Origin: Myxococcota bacterium
GTDB lineage: Bacteria; Myxococcota_C; UBA6777
Direction: 5' to 3'
Length of the DNA: 64,000 bases
NCBI GenBank assembly: GCA_023150835.1
Contig: JAKLKB010000003.1
Location: 62,001 to 126,000 of the forward strand
In this document: positions 33,384 through 45,931 of the stretch, piece after piece
Layout of the letters: every line of letters begins with the position of its first letter
Position numbering within the stretch: position 1 is the first letter of the stretch
Made by a program: the position numbers and the translations under genes
Notes under the pieces: model-generated
Database searches by the model: none
What the model was told of the DNA's origin: nothing
Seen by the model: the letters and a program-made list of their open reading frames with translations, nothing else

Positions 33384-34622
33384 TCACAACGAGCGCAAAA
33401 AGGCCAACAAAGCCTCTTGTTCCGTAGAAGAAAGCGCGAAAAATCTATCGCGACTTTTTTGTGCTTCACCGCCGTGTTCGTCGATGGCTTCTTTGAGGGT
33501 TTTGGCGCGCCCATCGTGCAAGTAAAAAGGCTGCCCTCCCATCAAATCTCCGATTACACCCAACCCCCAAAGTGGCGTCGTTCGCCACATATCGCCTGTC
33601 GCTTGCCCCTCGGGGTATCCGTCGGCCAGCTTGGGTCCCATGTCGTGCAATAAGAGATCAGAGTACAGAGGAACCGTCTTTTCACGGAGAGCTTCGATCG
33701 CACTCTTTCCTGTTTTCATGGAAGGGACATGGCATTTTGCACACCCGACTTGCGCAAAAAAACCTTCGCCTTGTTTCACCACGGGATTTTCCGCATCACG
33801 CCGAGGGGGTGGGCGCAAGGTCCGCATATAAAATGTCACCGATCGAACCGTTGCAGCGGATACTTCGGGATCTGGAGCGCTGTCTCCCGAAGGTCCACCG
33901 ACAAGAGGATTATGCAGATCTTTCATCAAAAAGTCGGAGGTGATCCCCATATCGTTGAGATAGGCTTCGGCTACCTGTTGCAACAAATTGATCGCCGCCG
34001 CTTTTCGCCCAAAGCGCCCCATGATCTTGCCGTCCTTTGGCGTGTGTTCGATCACAGGCTCGAAGAAACTCGGCGGAGTGACGTAGTTGGGCCGCCCTCG
34101 GATCCCATCGCCGTCTTTGTCGTCTGGATCGGCGTATCGGAGGATCTCGGATTCGGGGATCGCCTCGATCAAACCCAGCCCTGTCACGATGGGAGCGCTG
34201 CGCACAGAACGCGCTAAACCTTCCAGATTCGGTAGCTTTTCAGCTTGGTAGCCAAGGACCGCTCGGTGCTGGAGTTGAGGCCCCCCAAGGTGCAGCAAGT
34301 AATCAAAACGCGCAGCATCCGTCGGATCGCCCACCCCAAAGCGCGTCAGGTTGGTCGACGGATGCCCCTTGCCATCGGCGGTATGACAAGCGATACACGA
34401 CGCTTCCACAAAGATCGGCCCCAAGCCCGTTGCAGGTGTAAAGACACGTGCGAATTCTTCGTCTCCTGCCTTAAACGTCTGCAACTGTGCGTGAGAAAGC
34501 CCCTCGATCGGCCCATCCAGCACCGTTTCTCGTCGCGGCTCTTCTGTGAACAACACGCCGCAACCGCTCCCACACACCATCCAAACACTCCACAAACACA
34601 AAAGCCGAAACATCCAAGACAT
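33384..34622 (-). CDS. Di-haem oxidoreductase lipoprotein (DUF1111 / thiol oxidoreductase type)
   Basis: 412 aa from the ATG at 34622 (AGGA upstream). The lipobox CGSGC gives Cys21 as lipid anchor. Two haem-c motifs, CIACH (76-80) and CAKCH (294-298), plus FDYLLHLGGPQLQHRAVLGY, GLGLIEAIPESEILRYADP, DGDGIRGRPNYV, GRFGRKA and RTTPLWGLG are the signature of the DUF1111 di-haem oxidoreductases related to MauG and di-haem peroxidases. It should be periplasm-facing and accept or donate single electrons. It is the third gene of a Rieske-porin-di-haem operon and lies 42 bases after the porin gene. Its 3' end faces the Fpg-like gene with two bases between stops. Confidence 0.88.
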   Translation of the reverse strand: MSWMFRLLCLWSVWMVCGSGCGVLFTEEPRRETVLDGPIEGLSHAQLQTFKAGDEEFARVFTPATGLGPIFVEASCIACHTADGKGHPSTNLTRFGVGDPTDAARFDYLLHLGGPQLQHRAVLGYQAEKLPNLEGLARSVRSAPIVTGLGLIEAIPESEILRYADPDDKDGDGIRGRPNYVTPPSFFEPVIEHTPKDGKIMGRFGRKAAAINLLQQVAEAYLNDMGITSDFLMKDLHNPLVGGPSGDSAPDPEVSAATVRSVTFYMRTLRPPPRRDAENPVVKQGEGFFAQVGCAKCHVPSMKTGKSAIEALREKTVPLYSDLLLHDMGPKLADGYPEGQATGDMWRTTPLWGLGVIGDLMGGQPFYLHDGRAKTLKEAIDEHGGEAQKSRDRFFALSSTEQEALLAFLRSL

Positions 34623-34664
34623 CGTATAAGTCCTATCTCTTTGCAAGAAACTTTTCGATTTGCC

Positions 34665-36038
34665 TCAAAAGTAGGTCGCCACGCCAAACTGTACCCCCGC
34701 ACGACGCGCCACATTCCCCAAACGATCTGTGAGCCAACTGTGTTGGTACTCCACACGCAAAGAAGTCCCTTCGTAGGGGCGAAACGACAGAGCCAACGTC
34801 AAGCGCAACGTCTCGTCGCCGATATCCTGCCCCGTTGACGCAAAACGCCCGACGTGCAGATCGACGTAATCAACGCGCCCCACAAGACGAAACGCAGCCT
34901 CTCGTAAAAATCCAAGACGCCCCTTCCAAAATTCCCAGATCACATCCGCATAAATCCCCCACTGCGTATCCGCAAACAGCTCCACCAAACCATCCGGGAT
35001 ATCGATCCAAGCGACCGCTGCTTCGGTGCGGATCGTGACCGGCCCAAAAGATATCTCCGCATCCACCGCAAAGATCTTGAGCCACAACGCTCGATCGATC
35101 TCTTCGGCTCCGTCCCGATAACGGTTGAAGATCCCCACATACCCCGAAAACCCGACCTCAAGCCCCAAAGGTCCTGCATACGCGATCCGACCCGTCAATG
35201 CAGGAGATCCGTTTTCATTGGCCGCAAAGATCGCCGACGATTTGCCTCGTGCGATCCGCGTCCCTTCGGCAGAATCGTTGATGATCCCGCTGCGCAACCC
35301 GTTCACTACGTAGAGTTCGTAATACAACTTGTGCCCAAGCGCAGGAAAAAAACTACCCGTCACACCAAAGCCGACATCCGAGTACGTCGACGGGATCACC
35401 CATGTCGAGACCAATGGCCGATCGATCACATCATAACGCGGCCCATCGTGGGCGATATTGAAACGCCCGATAGGAGGCAGCAAGATGCCCCCTCGCAACA
35501 CAAACGCCCGATGGAAGCGAAAATCCACCAGCGCCGTCTCCAACGCGATGCTCGAAGTTCCCTGCTCGAATTCCAACTCCGCCGTCAAACGTACAAAACT
35601 CCCAAGAGACGAAAAAACAAACAGATTAAAGCGCCGCGCCTCAAACGAAAAGCCATCCGTCAACCCTTCTTGAAGGATGTATCGACCCAAAAACTCGGTA
35701 TACCCGCCCAAGGCGATCGACATCCCACCAAGCGCCTCCGAAGTCCCCAGCCTACCGATATAAGGGCGATCATAAATTCCACCCCGAACCACGGGTGTCT
35801 CGGACGTTGTTGGTTTTTTCCCGAAGTTCCCTTCATATTGAAAGCTCGGAGCCTTTGGTGTATCCGCTTTTTGAGAAGATGTCGGAAGGCTACTTGGCCT
35901 TGAAGTCGGCGGCCCATACGCGGCGTGCTCCTGAGCACGTGCAAGATCAAGCCCTGCCCAAAACACAACCCACGCACCCAGCAGCCCAAAGCACCGACGC
36001 CACCAAATCCCCAAAAACACACAACCGCCCAGCTTCAA
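34665..36038 (-). CDS. Outer-membrane porin-like beta-barrel
   Basis: 457 aa starting at TTG 36038, supported by GGGGAGG six bases upstream; the TTG overlaps the stop of the Rieske gene (TTGA). A signal peptide ends LARAQ. A short Pro/Ser region is followed by alternating amphipathic strands with aromatic girdles (LGGYTEFLGRYIL, FSFEARRFNLFVFSSLG, VLRGGILLPPIGRFNIAHDGP, KLYYELYVVNGL) and a C-terminal Phe (VATYF), the usual outer-membrane assembly signal. The pattern resembles phosphate-selective porin O/P-like barrels. Its substrate is unknown; the operon with a Rieske protein and a di-haem enzyme suggests passage of a substrate oxidised or reduced in the periplasm. Confidence 0.82.
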   Translation of the reverse strand: MKLGGCVFLGIWWRRCFGLLGAWVVFWAGLDLARAQEHAAYGPPTSRPSSLPTSSQKADTPKAPSFQYEGNFGKKPTTSETPVVRGGIYDRPYIGRLGTSEALGGMSIALGGYTEFLGRYILQEGLTDGFSFEARRFNLFVFSSLGSFVRLTAELEFEQGTSSIALETALVDFRFHRAFVLRGGILLPPIGRFNIAHDGPRYDVIDRPLVSTWVIPSTYSDVGFGVTGSFFPALGHKLYYELYVVNGLRSGIINDSAEGTRIARGKSSAIFAANENGSPALTGRIAYAGPLGLEVGFSGYVGIFNRYRDGAEEIDRALWLKIFAVDAEISFGPVTIRTEAAVAWIDIPDGLVELFADTQWGIYADVIWEFWKGRLGFLREAAFRLVGRVDYVDLHVGRFASTGQDIGDETLRLTLALSFRPYEGTSLRVEYQHSWLTDRLGNVARRAGVQFGVATYF

Positions 36039-36595
36039 CGGCCACCTCCCCGCGCTCTCAAGTCGATCCAGACGCCTTCGGCCTTCTCCACAACGGGATA
36101 GCGCACCAACCCAGACCGCGCAGGCCCGGCCAAACGCGCTCCCATCCGATCAAATCGCGCCCCATGACACGGACATTCATAACCATCAGGCTCTGCATCG
36201 ACCTCACACCCCCGATGACTGCACCGCGATAGCAAAGCAACGTACCCCTCCGAAAGCTTTCGCAAATAGATCGGCGGCCCCCATCCTCCCGCACGCAACG
36301 ACAACACAGTCTGCGCGTCCTTGAGCGATACCAACTTCGCACGAGGAACCAAAGCCCATCCCCCTTGGATCGGCGCTTCATAAGCAACCTGTTTGACACA
36401 CCCCACACCGCCAAATGCTGCACCACTCGCCAACACCAACGCCACCCGACCCAGCCGCCCCAACAACGCACGGCGCGTACACTCCGCCTCACCATCCCCC
36501 GTCGCTTCGGCCTCGCCCTCCTCCCAAAGTTGCTCGGCGTTTTCGTCGCGTTGCTGACAACCCATGCACAAAGGCGCACACTCTAATTTCTCCAT
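36035..36595 (-). CDS. Rieske [2Fe-2S] protein, Tat-exported, possible lipoprotein
   Basis: 186 aa from the ATG at 36595. The two Rieske boxes CSHRGC (125-130) and CPCHG (141-145) are complete: cluster ligands Cys125, His127, Cys141, His144 and disulphide Cys130-Cys143. The N-terminal region contains CTRRALLGRLGRVALVLASG, a twin-arginine signal, and a lipobox-like GGVGC at Cys66, so it may be folded with its cluster in the cytoplasm and then exported. Unusually, about 38 Cys/Glu-rich residues (ECAPLCMGCQQ) precede the twin arginines. Its stop overlaps the porin TTG start. Known arsenite-oxidase small subunits have a similar plan, but no molybdopterin subunit is here; a quinol or haem electron partner is more likely. 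Confidence 0.85.
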   Translation of the reverse strand: MEKLECAPLCMGCQQRDENAEQLWEEGEAEATGDGEAECTRRALLGRLGRVALVLASGAAFGGVGCVKQVAYEAPIQGGWALVPRAKLVSLKDAQTVLSLRAGGWGPPIYLRKLSEGYVALLSRCSHRGCEVDAEPDGYECPCHGARFDRMGARLAGPARSGLVRYPVVEKAEGVWIDLRARGGGR

Positions 36596-36694
36596 GTTCC
36601 GTTGCTTACCTCGGCTCTTTCTCTCAATCCAATAGAAATAAGACTTCACCTGCGCCCTTGGCGCGGCTCCAAGAAGCAAGAGGATAAAAGCAAA

Positions 36695-36722
36695 GCTAAA
36701 AGGATGCAAATCCTTTTTTAGC
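36695..36722 (-). terminator. Rho-independent terminator for PilZ-like gene
   Basis: Read on the minus strand just after the stop of the gene ending at 36734: a stem GCTAAAA..AAGGAT / ATCCTTTTAGC with loop TTGC, followed by the T-rich run TTTGCTTTTATCC. A smaller GCTAATTTTAGC palindrome overlaps the stop codon. It lies upstream of the Rieske gene start and insulates that operon. Confidence 0.6.
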
Positions 36723-36733
36723 AAAGGCTAAAA

Positions 36734-37961: not shown

Positions 37962-38510
37962 ATGAAGACACACACAACTCCTGCCTCTCTTCGCCTTCTT
38001 GCCACACTCGGCCTTTGTATGGCGTTGTTTTTCTTTGGCAAACGCTGGTATCAGCAAGCCGAGACCTCATCGCTGCTTTGGCTACTCGGCCCCACCACGC
38101 AGGCGCTGTCTTGGTGGTCTGGAAAGACCTATCACTTCGTGGTGTCTGAAGGATTTTTACGAGAAGATGGCGCTTTGCTGATCCACAAAAACTGTTCCGG
38201 TTTTCAGTTTTTTTTACTTGCGCTGCTTGTCTCATGGTCTTCTCTGCTGTATCACGCTCGCTCTTTTCGTACAGGCTTTGTTCGCTTTTTGATCAGCAGT
38301 TGTGCAGCGTATCTGTTGACCTTGCTTGCCAATACCGCACGCATTCTTTCCGCTGAACACTTGGCTGCCATGCCATCGATCGCGTCACACATCGCCGCCG
38401 ACACCCTTCATCAAAGTGTCGGGATCTTTGTGTACTTCAGCTTTTTGGTGCTCTTTTCTCTTTGCCTTTGGAGTGTACCCGATGAACGTCCCAACCCAAC
38501 CCCATCTTGA
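37962..38510 (+). CDS. Dedicated exosortase (XrtK-like)
   Basis: 182 aa from the ATG at 37962 (AGAGG five bases upstream). Multi-helix membrane protein with the exosortase/archaeosortase active-site trio: Cys78 in HKNCSGFQFF, Arg127 in LANTARILSAEH and His150 in TLHQSVGIFVYFSF. Exosortases cut a short C-terminal sorting motif after export, in a transpeptidase-like reaction. The protein is shorter than the 8-helix exosortase A type, resembling the small dedicated exosortases such as XrtK that work on one neighbouring substrate. The next gene overlaps by 29 bases and ends in a sorting-signal-like tail, so it is the likely substrate. Confidence 0.82.
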   Translation: MKTHTTPASLRLLATLGLCMALFFFGKRWYQQAETSSLLWLLGPTTQALSWWSGKTYHFVVSEGFLREDGALLIHKNCSGFQFFLLALLVSWSSLLYHARSFRTGFVRFLISSCAAYLLTLLANTARILSAEHLAAMPSIASHIAADTLHQSVGIFVYFSFLVLFSLCLWSVPDERPNPTPS

Positions 38511-41500
38511 ACCCGCCGAACCATCTAGGCAACTGGATCTACAAAGCAGCAACCATCCCTACTGGCTATTGCTCAGCCTCACTCTCCCACAAGTCTTGTT
38601 GTGGTTGGCTTTTTTCTATCAATACATCTTGATCCAAAGTCTTTTATCTGACAAGAGTAAAGGCTATTGGGCAGATTATGGAATGCTGATCGGCGCAGGG
38701 ATTGTTGGATCGATCTTTGTTGCATGCTTTTTCCGATACAAACGTCATCCTCTTCCTGCATGGCTCGCTCCGCTGCTTTTGTTCGGATATATCGGCCTTC
38801 TTTATTTTTCGATCAAAGATATGCCCCAGCTTTTACCGTTCAACATCCCGCAGTGGATGAGCCAACGAGAAGAATTATCACTTCTTCCTTTTGCTTTCAC
38901 GATGCCTGTTCTTTTTCATGCTTTGTTGATGTTGATCGCTTACTTTACGCCGAACCAAGACGAGACGGCCTCTTTCCCTAATTTCTTTTATGCGCTGCTG
39001 ATCCCGTTGATCTGGTACTTTTTTATCCAGATCCTTGTGCCGTATTTGCGAACAAAAACGTACCTTTCGGAGCGCCTTTTTCTGATCTTTTTTATCTGCA
39101 CAACGGTTTGTTTTTTCTTTTTTCTTTTGCGCGGTGTGCTGTTGGCCCTGCGAAAGAACCAAAAAACATCGCGTTATGCCCCATTCTGGCGTCTTTTGAT
39201 CGCGTTGATCTTACCGCTTGCTGGGCTGGTGACCTACAACGCACGCAGCCTTTTTGGAATGCGCGGGATGCACACGCCTCAGATCGTTGGCGAACTCAGC
39301 CATCCGCTTTTCTATCTTTGCGCGATCCTCGCGGCAGGTGCGCTGCTTGCTCCATCTCCGCTGCTTCCACGCGCACGCTTGGCGCTGTTTTCGTTGCGTA
39401 TGGTCGTGTATCCTTACACGCTGTTTTTCTTTGTGATCTTCTTGCCTTTCTTGCCTTTGTCGTTGCTTGCGATCTTGGTGATGGGTCTGGGTTTTCTGAT
39501 GCTTGCTCCGACCCTGTTGATGATCTTGCACAGCAGGACACTCGCAGAAGAATGGAGAGCGCTTCGCCTGCATTACCGCACAACCCTGCTTGGTCTCGTT
39601 GCTGTCCTTTCCTTTTTTGCCGTCCCCTCTGGCATCCTCACTTATCTGTTCCAAGAACGCGCCACACTCCACCGCGCACTCGCCTATCTTTATCAGCCCG
39701 ATCACCTGCGCGTCCAAGCCCCCGATATCTATCCCGCTCTCCTGCGCAACAGCATCGACGCTCTGCGCCAACACCACCAGCGCAGACGTGGACGCCGTTT
39801 CGTGATCGCGGACGAAAAGCGTGTACCCTTTCTGACTTCTCTTTACAAAAGCATCGTGCTTGACAATATGACTTTATCGCAAAACAAGATCAACGAACTC
39901 TCCCAAACCTTTTTGGGCAACACTTCTCCCTCCCAAACCACGACTGCTCGCCTCTTCCGCCCCAACAGAGCCTCTCCATCCGCTTCACTTCAGCCCATCC
40001 CCCCCCAAACCACCGCGATATCGCCCCATCAGTCGCGCTCTCCCCAAAGTACCGTCGCTTCGACCTCTCCTCCGCGCTCTCCCCAAAGTACCGTCGCTTC
40101 GACCTCTCCTCCGCGCTCTCCCCAAAGTACCGTCGCTTCGACCTCTCAACCAAACGTGAAGATTGCTCAACCATCCCCTGCGTCGGCCTCCAAGATGTTT
40201 ACACCGTCTCCGTCTGTAAGCACCCAAACCGCCCTTTCCGCCACAAGGCCAACTTCTGCCACAGCCGCGACAGCCAGCCCCCACGCAGCCACGCAGCCCA
40301 CCGTCGCCGCTGCTCAACCAGCATTTCGCATCACTACACCCAAGATCACACACTTACAAACCAGCACACACTACGATCCAACGATCCACGCTTACAAAAG
40401 CACGATCCTTCTTCGGATCACGAATTACGGGACTTGGCAGCAAGAATTCTCCACCTCTTTCCAGATCCCGCTCGGTGTTTGGGCGAGTGCCTATGCCCTT
40501 TGGATCGATGGGAAAAAAGTGGACGGTGCGCTCACCGAAAAAAAGGCGACGCTGTGGGTCTATCAACAGATCGTTCGTGCGCGCCAAGATCCCGGCCTGT
40601 TGTACTACGAAGACGCGACCACACTACGCCTGCGGGTGTTTCCCGTCCTTGCTCGCGAGACACGCCAAACGAGTTTCACGCTGTTGCACAAAGCGCCTTT
40701 TTCCTTTCAGATCGGCGCAAGCACACATCACCTCGACGATAGCCGTGTGCTCTCTCGGATGCAGCGCCCGATCGAACGGCTGTGGGGAGATCACCTGCTG
40801 TTCTTCCCGCACGAACAAAAAGCCAAACTCCCCACGTTGACGCGCAAGCCTTATCTGCACGCGATCCTCGATTGTTCACAGGGACGAAAAAGCCATTATG
40901 CCCTCTACATCGAACAGATCCGCAAGCTGCACCAACGCTACAACCTCGATCCCACGCACACCCGCGTCACCTTTGCGAACTATCAAGCCCACACCAGCGC
41001 TTGGTCCGCTGACTTGCTCCAACACCTCGAAAGCTATCCTGCCCAAGGCGGACTTTTTCTTGTCCGCGTCCTCAAACGCATCTACCTCGAACACGCCACC
41101 CAAGCACGCGACTCTTTCCCTGTGGTCGTCGTACTCACCCCTCGCATCCAAGACGCGATCCTCAAACAAAGACTCCAAGGAGTCCCGTTTTTAAGTCCCG
41201 ACGCTGCGTCTTTTTATAGCCTTAACCCGCAAGATCGGTTCACACGCCACAGCCTTTACGGTCCCTTACGCGATCAAGAGATCCAAAACACCGATCCTGC
41301 GACATTTCAGCCCTTTTCCTTGGGGACTGTGCGTACATGGCCAGACGCGCAGCATCCTCGCGTATTCTTGCGCAACGATGGACAAGATAGCCTCGTATTG
41401 CGCGTCCCTTACGTGGCTCAGATGCCGCCCACCGCACTTCCCAACGATCCGTGGCAAGCGGGACTTGCGATCTATGGGCGTTGGCTATTGCAACAGCTAC

Positions 41501-41784
41501 GTTTGGGGGGACAAGAAAACTGGCTTGCGCAGATCCGTTGGAGTTGGTATGCCCGCATCCTCGGACCTCAGACCTCCTTTACTGTGCTGGAAAATCAAGC
41601 CCAATGGGAAGCCTTGCGCCGAAAACAACAGCAAGTCCTCGCAGGAAAAAGCTTTTTCGATCTGACCGAAGACGAAGGACCACGCCGTGCGGATGAACCG
41701 CCGCTCGGAGGGTTGGTGCTGTTGTTGGGGATGTTCTTCTTCTACTTTCTGCGCAAAACACGCAAAGCGCGGTCCCAGAATTAA
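38482..41784 (+). CDS. Multi-helix VIT-domain protein with C-terminal sorting signal (MSEP-CTERM-like)
   Basis: 1100 aa from the ATG at 38482 (GGAG upstream). The first ~400 residues hold about ten membrane helices. A Ser/Thr/Pro-rich stretch (res ~480-620) includes three RSPQSTVASTSPP units. Residues ~628-745 are a VIT domain (ILLRITNYGTWQQEFSTSF, GALTEKKATLWVYQQIVRAR, FPVLARETRQTSFTLL), followed by a degenerate vWA-like region (AILDCSQG). The tail is RADEPPLGG, a hydrophobic helix and RKTRKARSQN, the layout of an exosortase target; the DEPPLG motif resembles the SEP of MSEP-CTERM proteins. Known XrtK and XrtN systems pair one exosortase with one such membrane/VIT protein. It is translationally coupled to the exosortase gene. 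The mature role is unknown. Confidence 0.8.
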   Translation: MNVPTQPHLEPAEPSRQLDLQSSNHPYWLLLSLTLPQVLLWLAFFYQYILIQSLLSDKSKGYWADYGMLIGAGIVGSIFVACFFRYKRHPLPAWLAPLLLFGYIGLLYFSIKDMPQLLPFNIPQWMSQREELSLLPFAFTMPVLFHALLMLIAYFTPNQDETASFPNFFYALLIPLIWYFFIQILVPYLRTKTYLSERLFLIFFICTTVCFFFFLLRGVLLALRKNQKTSRYAPFWRLLIALILPLAGLVTYNARSLFGMRGMHTPQIVGELSHPLFYLCAILAAGALLAPSPLLPRARLALFSLRMVVYPYTLFFFVIFLPFLPLSLLAILVMGLGFLMLAPTLLMILHSRTLAEEWRALRLHYRTTLLGLVAVLSFFAVPSGILTYLFQERATLHRALAYLYQPDHLRVQAPDIYPALLRNSIDALRQHHQRRRGRRFVIADEKRVPFLTSLYKSIVLDNMTLSQNKINELSQTFLGNTSPSQTTTARLFRPNRASPSASLQPIPPQTTAISPHQSRSPQSTVASTSPPRSPQSTVASTSPPRSPQSTVASTSQPNVKIAQPSPASASKMFTPSPSVSTQTALSATRPTSATAATASPHAATQPTVAAAQPAFRITTPKITHLQTSTHYDPTIHAYKSTILLRITNYGTWQQEFSTSFQIPLGVWASAYALWIDGKKVDGALTEKKATLWVYQQIVRARQDPGLLYYEDATTLRLRVFPVLARETRQTSFTLLHKAPFSFQIGASTHHLDDSRVLSRMQRPIERLWGDHLLFFPHEQKAKLPTLTRKPYLHAILDCSQGRKSHYALYIEQIRKLHQRYNLDPTHTRVTFANYQAHTSAWSADLLQHLESYPAQGGLFLVRVLKRIYLEHATQARDSFPVVVVLTPRIQDAILKQRLQGVPFLSPDAASFYSLNPQDRFTRHSLYGPLRDQEIQNTDPATFQPFSLGTVRTWPDAQHPRVFLRNDGQDSLVLRVPYVAQMPPTALPNDPWQAGLAIYGRWLLQQLRLGGQENWLAQIRWSWYARILGPQTSFTVLENQAQWEALRRKQQQVLAGKSFFDLTEDEGPRRADEPPLGGLVLLLGMFFFYFLRKTRKARSQN

Positions 41785-41813: not shown

Positions 41814-42160
41814 CGGCCAACGGGGGGAAGTTGGAGCAGGCAAAGACGCACCCGCAGAAGTCGTACCTGCAAGAGAGACCACAGCGGCCAACGGGGGGAA
41901 GTTGGAGCAGGCAAAGACGCACCCGCAGAAGTCCAAGTGTTCGGGAACCGCCCGTGTATCGGGACATCGAGCAGCGAACGGACACGCTCACACAACCACA
42001 GAAGTTTACGTAGGGGCGGTTCGCGAACCGCCCGTGTATCGGGACATCGAGCAGTGTTGTCTTTCCGACAGCACAGACGAAGTGTCCGAGTGTTCGGGGT
42101 GGGGGGCCAACCATCGCTTAACAAGGCGCGTATGGGGCGTCGCACAACGACGGGGTGAGG
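41814..42160. repeat. Composite repeat region before the first Hsp100-RF gene
   Basis: Contains a 49-base direct repeat (41814-41862 and 41885-41933, with AACGGGGGGAAGTTGGAGC and CAAAGACGCACCCGCAGAAG) and a 30-base direct repeat (41945-41974 and 42025-42054, GTGTATCGGGACATCGAGCA). GTAGGGGCGGTTCGCGAACC at ~42010 is a palindrome shared with 49.08 kb, and GGGGGGCCAACCATCGCTTA with AACAAGGCGCGTATGGGG is shared with ~48.76 and 49.0 kb. The 499-base gap 41785-42283 has no gene. Confidence 0.75.
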
Positions 42161-42283
42161 GTGAAACGAACATGGGAGGCCCTCTGGGTACTTGCCAGAA
42201 CAAGCGAACCTGCGCAAGATCCATCCGTCCATAAGGCCCGCACCGATCGACCCGACGGATGCGCCCATCTTCACGGAGTTTGG

Positions 42284-45200
42284 ATGAACCCCCAAGACAG
42301 CACCCCCGCCAAAGACACCGCCCCCCAAGAAGCCCAACAAACCCAGATCATCAAGCTCAAGCTGTTTGTTCAAGAACACCACGACGGCCAATTTACCCTC
42401 GAAGTCCTCGGAAAACGCGATATCTGCGTGTACACACCCGACCTCGATCAAGGCCGCGAAGAACTGATGTTGATGCTTGTCGATCTCGTTGAACGCAGCC
42501 ATCCCCGACTCCAAAGTAGCTTCCAACCCCCCGAAGATATCGAACACCACACCATCGAGATCCCCCGTGTGGTCTATGTTTCCGATGCTTCGGGACGTAG
42601 CGCAACCCCAACCAAAGTATCGATGTTCCTTCAACGCGATCGCAAATGGCAACGTCTGTATTTTCCGCGCCTTGACTGCCATTACTGGCTATCGATCGAG
42701 GCTCCGCTCGAAGAAAATGCGATCTCCTTTCTTCAGCAACATCAGTTTAAAAAGATGAGCGATCACGCTCGCCTCAATCAGCGCTATGAGAAAAAAGAAT
42801 GGATCGAAGAGTTGGAGATCGAAGCGATCCGTCCTCCCCTCGAAGAGTTTACAGGCCGGTATCTTGGGGTAGATCTGTTGCCGACTCCTGCGGAGCGCAA
42901 AGAAGCCGAAGAAAAAGAAGAGGAAGAAAACGCCCAAAAGCAAGGAAAAAAAGGCAAGAAGCGCCCGAATACACCGACATTTAAGAAGATCGGGATCCCG
43001 ATCGCACAACAAGCCAAAGACAAAGAACTCGAACATGCCTACGGACGGGACAAAGAGATCGAGTCGTTGTTTGGGATGCTGCAAGCCAAAGGCGGCAAAG
43101 CCATCGTACTAGTCGGTCCTTCGGGCTGTGGCAAAAGCGCCTTGTTGTCGGAGTTGGCCTATCGCGTGACGCACCCTGACACCCCCGAAGCCCTGCGCGA
43201 ACGGCCTATTTGGTTTGCTGATGCCAACCGCGTCGTCGCAACAGACGGATGGTTCGGCGACTGGCAAAGGCAGTGCCTTGATGTCATCCAAGAAGCCATC
43301 GATGCCGAAGTGATCTGGTACATCGGCGATGTCTTGCATCTGCTTGATGCCGGAAAAAACGTTCGTTCCGAGCAAAACGTCGCGATGATGCTCAAGCCCT
43401 ATCTTGCAGGCCGTCGCATCACGGTGATCGGTGAGTGTTCCTCGCGCAACTTTGCACAGCTTGAGTTGCGCGATGTCGGATTCGCCCGTATGTTCAGCCC
43501 TTTTCGCCTCGAAGATCCCCCCCCCGAAACGATCCGCTCCATCCTTCAAGAAGTCTCCAAAGATCTCAAAAAAGAACGCGCCATCGACGTATCGAGCCAA
43601 GGCTTGGACACCACGATGGAACTCAGCCGACGCTTCCAAAGCTCCCAAAGCCTACTCGGCCACAGCGTGGCCTTTTTGCGCCGCCTTGTGGACGACGCTT
43701 CCAGCACAGAAGCCCCCCCCAAAGAACCACTCGGACGCAACGAAGTGATCGCTCACTTTTGCTCAGAAACAGGGATGCCTGCTTTTTTGGTGCGCGATGA
43801 TCTTCCCCTTGATCCCGAAGCGATCTGGATGAGCTTTCGCACCCGCTTGATCGGCCAAGAAGAAGCCATCCGCCGCATGACCGATCTTGTCGCCATGATC
43901 AAGGCTGGGCTCTCTGATCTAGGCCGTCCCCTCGGCTCTTTTCTTTTTGTCGGTCCCACCGGCGTCGGAAAAACAGAGATGGCCAAGTGCCTTACCAGCT
44001 TTTTGTTTGGCCGCGAAGACCGCTTGATCCGCTTTGATATGTCCGAGTTTATCGACGCTTCAAGCGTCTATCGCTTCCTTGGTGACGCCCAAAATGAAGG
44101 GAAATTAATTAGCGCCATCCGCCGCAACCCGTTTTCTGTGCTGTTGCTCGACGAGATCGAAAAAGCCCATCCTGCGGTCTTTGACGTCTTGCTCCAAGTC
44201 CTTGGCGAGGCCCGACTCACCGACGAAGCAGGCCGCACCGCCGATTTCCGAAACGTCGTCGTCTTGATGACCTCAAACCTTGGTGTCGGCACTTTTCGCC
44301 GCCAAGTCGGCTTCGATCAAGGCGATGCGCTGCGCTTTCGCGATCACTTTCTGGCCGAAGCCGAACGCTTCTTTCGCCCCGAATTCTTCAACCGTATCGA
44401 CTACATCATCCCCTTTATGCCCCTCGAAAGCGAAGCCATCCATCAGATCACTGTGCGCGAGATGAACAAGTTCTTGCGCCGCGAAGGCATTCAACACCGC
44501 GAACTCCAACTCCAGATCGATCCGCTCGTCCATCCGTGGCTTGCCGAACGCGGCGTCAACCCACGCTACGGCGCACGCCCGCTCAAGCGCGTGCTTGAAC
44601 AACAGCTAACCGCCCCTCTCGCACGACACCTTTCGAGCCAACGCGGCCCGCACATCGGACAGATCGGCGTCCAACCCGAAAAAGAAGCCCTTCAATTTAC
44701 CAACCTCGGACAATCCAAACGCCAAGACACCCAACAAGCGCGAGCCACACTTCAAAAGCTGCTCGAACAGATCGGACTGGTTCGCTACCGCGCTCAGCGT
44801 TGGTCGCGTACCACCCTCTTTCGCGAACTCCACCAAAAAGTCCGCTTGTTTGATCGCCTCAGCCAGTCCCCCAACTTTTGGAACGATCACCATACCGCCG
44901 AACAATACGTCAAAAACATCGACGCAGAGCGCCAAGTCATCGAACAGTACCGCAGTTTTCAAGAGATGATCTGCTCCATCGAAGACCTCGCTTACGAGAC
45001 TTATTACGATCGCTCCGTCTCACAAAAACACACACTCGAAGAAGAACTTGCGCAGGCCGAAAAAAGCCTTGAAGCCTTGGAGTTTCAACTGTACGGTCAG
45101 CGCTTCCAACACCCCAACGCAGCGACCCTGTACTTTGAACCCGGCAAAAGCGCCGCAGGATTCTTGCGGGCCCTGCTTGAAACCTACATCGAGATCGCCA

Positions 45201-45931
45201 TCGAACGCGGGTGGCAAGTGACGGCCTACGCTTCGCGCCGCGTCCTCGATGAAGAACTTGAAATCCAACAGATCCCTGTCGAAGATCCCCCTCTTCCCGA
45301 GTCCTTGGCTGCTTTAGAAGAGCTTCAAAAACGCAAAGACCGCCGTCCCAACAACGCAAATGCAAGCGCAAATGCAGCTCCCTCCGAACAAGAAAACGAG
45401 CAAGAATCTATCCGCCGCGCCAACGAACAACGCCTGCTCGAATTCAAAAAGCGCAACTCTCTCGAATACCGCCGCTGGCTCTGGCGCGAGCTCGATCCCC
45501 CCGATCTCGCAGAGTCCGAGATGCGAAAACGCCGCATCGAGCGCCTACTTGATCAGCTTTACTCTTTTAGCGGCGACGAATACCCCCGTGTCATGGTCTT
45601 TGAAGGCCAGCACGCCGCAAGCCTACTCAACCACGAAAGCGGCCTCCACACCCGCATCGCCCGCGATCAAACCGAGCAAGTTAAAGTCTTTTACGCCGAT
45701 CAGCGGCCCTCCAAAAAAGAACAACTCCTTCATCCCGTCGATCTTTCCGAGAAATGGAGCACACAACGCCTTCGCACCGCCCAAGAAAACAAAAACCTCT
45801 TGATCGATCATGTCCTTGATACGCACGTCTACCTCGAACCCCGCCTCCACCTTCTTTATGCTCGCATGATGCGCAGCCACATCTACGTCAACACCTTCGG
45901 CGAACAAGCCGCCAAGTGGCTTCGCACCTAG
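42284..45931 (+). CDS. Hsp100/Clp-like AAA+ ATPase fused to GGQ-less RF2-like region (paralogue A)
   Basis: 1215 aa from the ATG at 42284 (CGGAG six bases upstream). Res 1-~195: private N-terminal domain; ~205-230 Glu/Lys linker. AAA-1: Walker A GPSGCGKS (278-285) but the Walker B position reads VIWYIGD (343-349), lacking the Asp-Glu pair. AAA-2 is ClpC/ClpB-like and intact: GPTGVGKT (557-564), LLLDE (620-624), TSNLG, arginine finger RPEFFNRID (698-706), sensor-2 GARPLKR (763-769), plus VGF (675-677) at the ClpP-loop position. From ~815 it reads like release factor 2: coiled coil with SPNFWNDHHTAEQY, then EKSLEALEFQLYG, LRALLETYIEIAIERGWQV and FEGQHAASLLNHESGLHTR (1106-1124), and a domain-4-like end. 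No GGQ or SPF is present. Probably a cytoplasmic hexamer; a ribosome link is inference. Confidence 0.85.
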   Translation: MNPQDSTPAKDTAPQEAQQTQIIKLKLFVQEHHDGQFTLEVLGKRDICVYTPDLDQGREELMLMLVDLVERSHPRLQSSFQPPEDIEHHTIEIPRVVYVSDASGRSATPTKVSMFLQRDRKWQRLYFPRLDCHYWLSIEAPLEENAISFLQQHQFKKMSDHARLNQRYEKKEWIEELEIEAIRPPLEEFTGRYLGVDLLPTPAERKEAEEKEEEENAQKQGKKGKKRPNTPTFKKIGIPIAQQAKDKELEHAYGRDKEIESLFGMLQAKGGKAIVLVGPSGCGKSALLSELAYRVTHPDTPEALRERPIWFADANRVVATDGWFGDWQRQCLDVIQEAIDAEVIWYIGDVLHLLDAGKNVRSEQNVAMMLKPYLAGRRITVIGECSSRNFAQLELRDVGFARMFSPFRLEDPPPETIRSILQEVSKDLKKERAIDVSSQGLDTTMELSRRFQSSQSLLGHSVAFLRRLVDDASSTEAPPKEPLGRNEVIAHFCSETGMPAFLVRDDLPLDPEAIWMSFRTRLIGQEEAIRRMTDLVAMIKAGLSDLGRPLGSFLFVGPTGVGKTEMAKCLTSFLFGREDRLIRFDMSEFIDASSVYRFLGDAQNEGKLISAIRRNPFSVLLLDEIEKAHPAVFDVLLQVLGEARLTDEAGRTADFRNVVVLMTSNLGVGTFRRQVGFDQGDALRFRDHFLAEAERFFRPEFFNRIDYIIPFMPLESEAIHQITVREMNKFLRREGIQHRELQLQIDPLVHPWLAERGVNPRYGARPLKRVLEQQLTAPLARHLSSQRGPHIGQIGVQPEKEALQFTNLGQSKRQDTQQARATLQKLLEQIGLVRYRAQRWSRTTLFRELHQKVRLFDRLSQSPNFWNDHHTAEQYVKNIDAERQVIEQYRSFQEMICSIEDLAYETYYDRSVSQKHTLEEELAQAEKSLEALEFQLYGQRFQHPNAATLYFEPGKSAAGFLRALLETYIEIAIERGWQVTAYASRRVLDEELEIQQIPVEDPPLPESLAALEELQKRKDRRPNNANASANAAPSEQENEQESIRRANEQRLLEFKKRNSLEYRRWLWRELDPPDLAESEMRKRRIERLLDQLYSFSGDEYPRVMVFEGQHAASLLNHESGLHTRIARDQTEQVKVFYADQRPSKKEQLLHPVDLSEKWSTQRLRTAQENKNLLIDHVLDTHVYLEPRLHLLYARMMRSHIYVNTFGEQAAKWLRT

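Follow-up and report, generated by a model that had tools for sequence, protein, structure and literature searches.

Exosortases, as commonly described, act on many secreted substrates that carry signal peptides. Both the cleavage of C-termini and their anchoring to lipid have been linked to archaeosortase A (PMC7157517), and exosortases have been suspected of transpeptidation (PMC11980579). The two described pairings closest to the locus considered here are exosortase K (XrtK; TIGR04287) with the MSEP-CTERM protein (TIGR04286), and exosortase N (XrtN) with its VIT-domain substrate (TIGR04476/TIGR04477). A literature search on XrtK or MSEP-CTERM found no paper on the family within the collection searched.

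The stretch of DNA analysed, hereafter the window, is 64,000 nucleotides long and contains adjacent, overlapping genes for an exosortase with a Cys/Arg/His trio and for a protein that combines a multi-helix N-terminus, a VIT domain, and a C-terminal tail of motif, helix, and basic cluster (Table 1). All of these features are shared with the XrtK/MSEP-CTERM system, whose profile cut-offs both products pass. The window pair differs from that system in carrying ADEP in place of MSEP, in an extra repeat-bearing linker of ~150 residues, and in its Myxococcota-like rather than Bacteroidota host. We put the probability that the two genes form a dedicated XrtK/MSEP-CTERM processing pair, taking family membership and dedicated pairing together, at roughly 0.85. 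The system itself is known, rare, and uncharacterised, and consists of two genes; what is new is the host group and the altered motif.

Table 1. Features of the xrtK/MSEP-CTERM locus (positions in the window; residues of the encoded proteins)
Feature	Position	Strand	Basis
xrtK, exosortase K, 182 aa, Cys78/Arg127/His150	37962..38510	+	TIGR04287, TIGR04178
29-base overlap of xrtK and substrate gene	38482..38510	+	gene coordinates
MSEP-CTERM family protein, 1100 aa, predicted sole XrtK substrate	38482..41784	+	TIGR04286
Multi-helix membrane domain, residues 27-386, 11 hydropathy peaks	38560..39639	+	Kyte-Doolittle scan
Pro/Ser/Thr-rich linker, residues about 481-627	39922..40362	+	alignment
39-base tandem repeat inside linker, 2.9 perfect copies	40034-40147		
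VIT domain, residues 639-733	40396..40680	+	PF08487
Domain after VIT, residues about 770-1071	40789..41694	+	invariant D797-x-S799 in alignment
C-terminal sorting tail (motif, helix, basic cluster)	41689..41781	+	hydropathy, TIGR04286, tail profile
ADEP, MSEP-equivalent sorting motif, residues 1070-1073, predicted cleavage region	41689..41700	+	alignment

The gene pair and its family

The window exosortase matches the NCBIfam exosortase K profile at 98.8 bits (cut-off 55) over profile positions 5-154 of 163, and the exosortase/archaeosortase superfamily profile (TIGR04178) at 30.4 bits (cut-off 23). Its partner matches the MSEP-CTERM profile at 622.5 bits (cut-off 150), in an alignment that extends to residue 1093. 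Because both curated profiles are matched far above cut-off, the pair is placed within the known XrtK/MSEP-CTERM system and not in a new kind of system.

Further comparison drew on ten loci: the window, the sister MAG KLAP109, and eight Bacteroidota genomes with XrtK above cut-off. Cys78, Asn124, Arg127, Ile128, His150, and Gly154 are invariant across the ten exosortases, and the small exosortase with an intact Cys/Arg/His trio described in an earlier note on this DNA, which had proposed a search with exosortase profiles, is thus borne out by both the profile match and the alignment. Between the window and the sister genome, dN/dS is 0.10 for xrtK and 0.15 for the substrate gene, indicating purifying selection on each. 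No sigma-70-like promoter was found upstream, a result of little weight in this host.

In all ten loci the MSEP-CTERM gene lies directly after xrtK and overlaps it; the longest reading frames of the pair share 4-47 bases in the eight Bacteroidota loci. The 29-base overlap in the window, reported earlier and confirmed by the gene coordinates, is consistent with translational coupling. No third conserved gene was found, xrtK and the substrate gene being the only ones common to all ten loci. Across a sample of 199 genomes from one Bacteroidota family, XrtK and MSEP-CTERM exceed their cut-offs in exactly the same five (p about 4e-10, counting genomes as independent). The host genome contains one exosortase and one tail of this type; the two therefore appear to be a dedicated pair, in agreement with the earlier proposal of an exosortase with a single substrate. 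Matches to independent curated profiles (98.8 and 622 bits), purifying selection, and the first rank of the window tail in a profile search (below) together argue that the pairing is not a product of chance.

Other features flank the pair. On the opposite strand and divergent from xrtK (33384-36724, -), genes for a di-haem oxidoreductase (DHOR, 207 bits), a porin-like protein, and a Rieske protein (33.7 bits) stand in a row and are possibly a redox operon. Directly 3' of the substrate gene, at 41815-41935, the stretch GGCCAACGGGGGGAAGTTGGAGCAGGCAAAGACGCACCCGCAGAAGT is present in two near-identical copies, 71 bases apart, possibly a mobile-element remnant or a REP-like element. Beyond it (42155-45931, +) is a gene for a ClpB-like AAA+ protein (AAA_2, 149 bits; ClpB_D2-small, 53 bits). 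PCRF, a domain of peptide-chain release factors, is matched by the C-terminal part of this protein (29.8 bits, cut-off 24), and the RF-1 domain is not, an unusual fusion. In three Flavobacteriaceae-like loci (L038, L039, and L040), xrtK and the MSEP-CTERM gene lie near genes for the uncharacterised membrane proteins DUF1361, DUF2809, DUF218, and DUF4153, shared in part; this possible functional neighbourhood is absent at the window locus.

Architecture of the substrate

Hydropathy analysis of the substrate predicts 11 helices ahead of residue 400, close to the approximately ten counted earlier, and then a long stretch before the last helix near the C-terminus. The topology is drawn from hydropathy, the structure model of the substrate (pLDDT 44.6) being too poor for use, and it suggests a multi-helix N-terminus, a long outward-facing part, and one C-terminal helix. 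The previously noted VIT domain scores 38.6 bits against PF08487 (cut-off 26.5), and the Pfam match recurs in 10 of 10 orthologues. Ahead of it lies the linker, present in the window and sister genome and absent from all Bacteroidota orthologues; its dN/dS between window and sister genome is 0.48, as compared with 0.03 in the VIT domain.

The domain that follows VIT is possibly a degenerate VWA fold, a weak reading. No Pfam match to VWA was found there in any of the ten orthologues, and an hhalign comparison was not significant. A Foldseek search with the poor model returned the inter-alpha-inhibitor heavy chain ITIH1 as the top hit (E 1e-4, TM 0.18). Structure predictions made from three sequences reached pLDDT values of 39.9 and 44.6, too poor for the VWA reading to be other than weak.

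The C-terminal tail and its altered motif

The tail of the window substrate consists of the motif, a single helix at the hydropathy peak 1072-1090, and the basic stretch RKTRKARSQN (5 K/R in 10 residues), the same tripartite plan that had been read from the sequence. The literal MSEP motif is absent, ADEP standing in its place with differences at two of the four positions; MSEP gives TIGR04286 its name, and membership in the family is decided by the whole-length profile. Among the ten substrates, ADEP occurs in the window and sister sequences, MSEP in seven of the eight from Bacteroidota, and MDEP in the remaining one, leaving Glu1072-Pro1073 invariant. The earlier note had correctly anticipated a changed motif but had written it as DEPPLG; in the orthologue alignment its Glu-Pro core is conserved and "PLG" is not, and ADEP is the better name for the motif.

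When a profile was made from Bacteroidota tails alone, the window tail came out on top among 1872 reading frames (E 0.0047). In the host genome this tail is also the only strong match to a tail profile, and no further substrates were recovered; the second match (E 0.096) is an unrelated low-complexity frame.

The altered motif also admits a different reading, in which the substrate with ADEP is no longer processed and stays a double-anchored membrane protein, with XrtK serving as an assembly partner or acting on another target. Two of four motif positions have changed, and the tail, with dN/dS of 0.24 between window and sister genome against 0.03 in the VIT domain, is the less constrained region. 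However, the catalytic Cys/Arg/His residues, the Glu-Pro pair, the helix, and the basic cluster are kept in both genomes, the intermediate form MDEP is present in a deep relative from Bacteroidota, no other such tail was found in the genome, and xrtK itself has a dN/dS of 0.10. These data make loss of processing unlikely. It is instead likely, as judged from the sequence comparisons, that XrtK cleaves the substrate at ADEP; the placement of the cut rests on alignment because the motif departs from MSEP at two positions.

Exosortase N and contamination as alternative explanations

The earlier note had left the plan of the locus between XrtK/MSEP-CTERM and XrtN/VIT pairs; the first assignment holds and the second does not. 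An XrtN-type pair would likewise consist of a dedicated exosortase and a VIT-domain substrate, the window substrate does match the XrtN-system VIT protein profile (TIGR04477) at 47.4 bits, and the XrtN profile is weakly matched by 3 of the 10 XrtK orthologues. Yet that substrate score falls far below the cut-off of 250, with the VIT region as its best stretch, and the window exosortase has no XrtN match at E up to 10. The XrtN assignment is thus ruled out by the curated cut-offs and was rejected as highly improbable.

All orthologues found outside the host genus are from Bacteroidota, but contamination of a Myxococcota-like MAG by a Bacteroidota contig was rejected, with next to no probability left to it, as the independent sister MAG carries the pair at 90% identity beside the same upstream neighbour, the contig of the window also bears two MYXO-CTERM genes, and GC is 0.53-0.55 in the window and sister contig versus 0.27-0.44 in the Bacteroidota loci.

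Host and distribution

The MYXO-CTERM tail has been described as universal in Myxococcota (PMC11980579). The host genome encodes about 30 MYXO-CTERM proteins above cut-off, including the two on the window's contig, from which we take the host to be Myxococcota-like, as first suggested, and the locus to be its own. The sister MAG, labelled Myxococcota, has both genes at about 90% identity (90-91% for the substrate).

XrtK above cut-off was found neither in other genera of the host family nor in a domain-wide sample of about 285 genomes, and in Bacteroidota it occurs only here and there (4 of 395 genomes). This distribution suggests, without proving it, an old transfer, in which the host genus probably acquired the pair from a Bacteroidota-like source. 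GC of the two genes (0.51-0.54) is similar to that of the host (0.55), so any transfer must be old; the ten-sequence tree is unrooted, and the direction of transfer cannot be read from it.

Proposed mechanism

The N-terminal helices of the substrate would sit in the inner membrane, with the VIT domain facing out and the C-terminal helix holding the other end. As expected from its relation to the exosortase/archaeosortase superfamily, XrtK would then use Cys78, with Arg127 and His150, to cut at or near ADEP on the external side of that membrane, removing the C-terminal helix. By analogy with the proposal for archaeosortase, the new C-terminus might be joined to a lipid or other moiety. The cut would not free the substrate from the membrane, because the N-terminal helices stay in place; it is more likely that these steps would mature or switch the VIT-bearing domain, through a free end or a swapped anchor, than that they would release it. 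That the cut serves to mature or switch this part of the protein is a plausible proposal, though one we hold at somewhat less than even odds. Simple surface delivery cannot be its purpose, since the sole partner is already held by many helices.

More tentatively still, the XrtK/MSEP-CTERM system as a whole may serve not for surface sorting but as a switch with a single substrate, in which a cut at Glu-Pro frees or re-anchors the VIT domain at one end of a polytopic inner-membrane protein, and which in the host genus would have been recruited beside MYXO-CTERM with a co-evolved ADEP motif. A member from a distant phylum with an altered motif reveals which motif positions are kept, namely Glu-Pro, and the two genes form a compact unit in which to test exosortase chemistry.

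Comparison with other sorting systems

Archaeosortase A belongs to the same superfamily as XrtK and is likewise a membrane enzyme based on Cys, and its PGF-CTERM substrates have a tripartite tail, as the window substrate does. However, archaeosortase A has several substrates, including the S-layer glycoprotein, and lipid attachment is experimentally supported there and no more than a possibility here. The MYXO-CTERM/myxosortase (MrtX) system, with its many tails in the same host genome, is likewise built on a tripartite C-terminal signal, but its enzyme is an unrelated CPBP protease that serves many substrates through a motif with an invariant Cys, a residue that the window tail lacks. Proteins with VIT/VWA homology are repeatedly found paired with enzymes dedicated to processing their C-termini (PMC3237569), and the XrtK/VIT pairing therefore has precedent: GlyGly-CTERM, PEP-CTERM, and LPXTG proteins of this type, the last with a dedicated sortase, pair a VIT-type protein with its own processing enzyme in the same manner, although their enzymes or motifs are unrelated to XrtK and ADEP.
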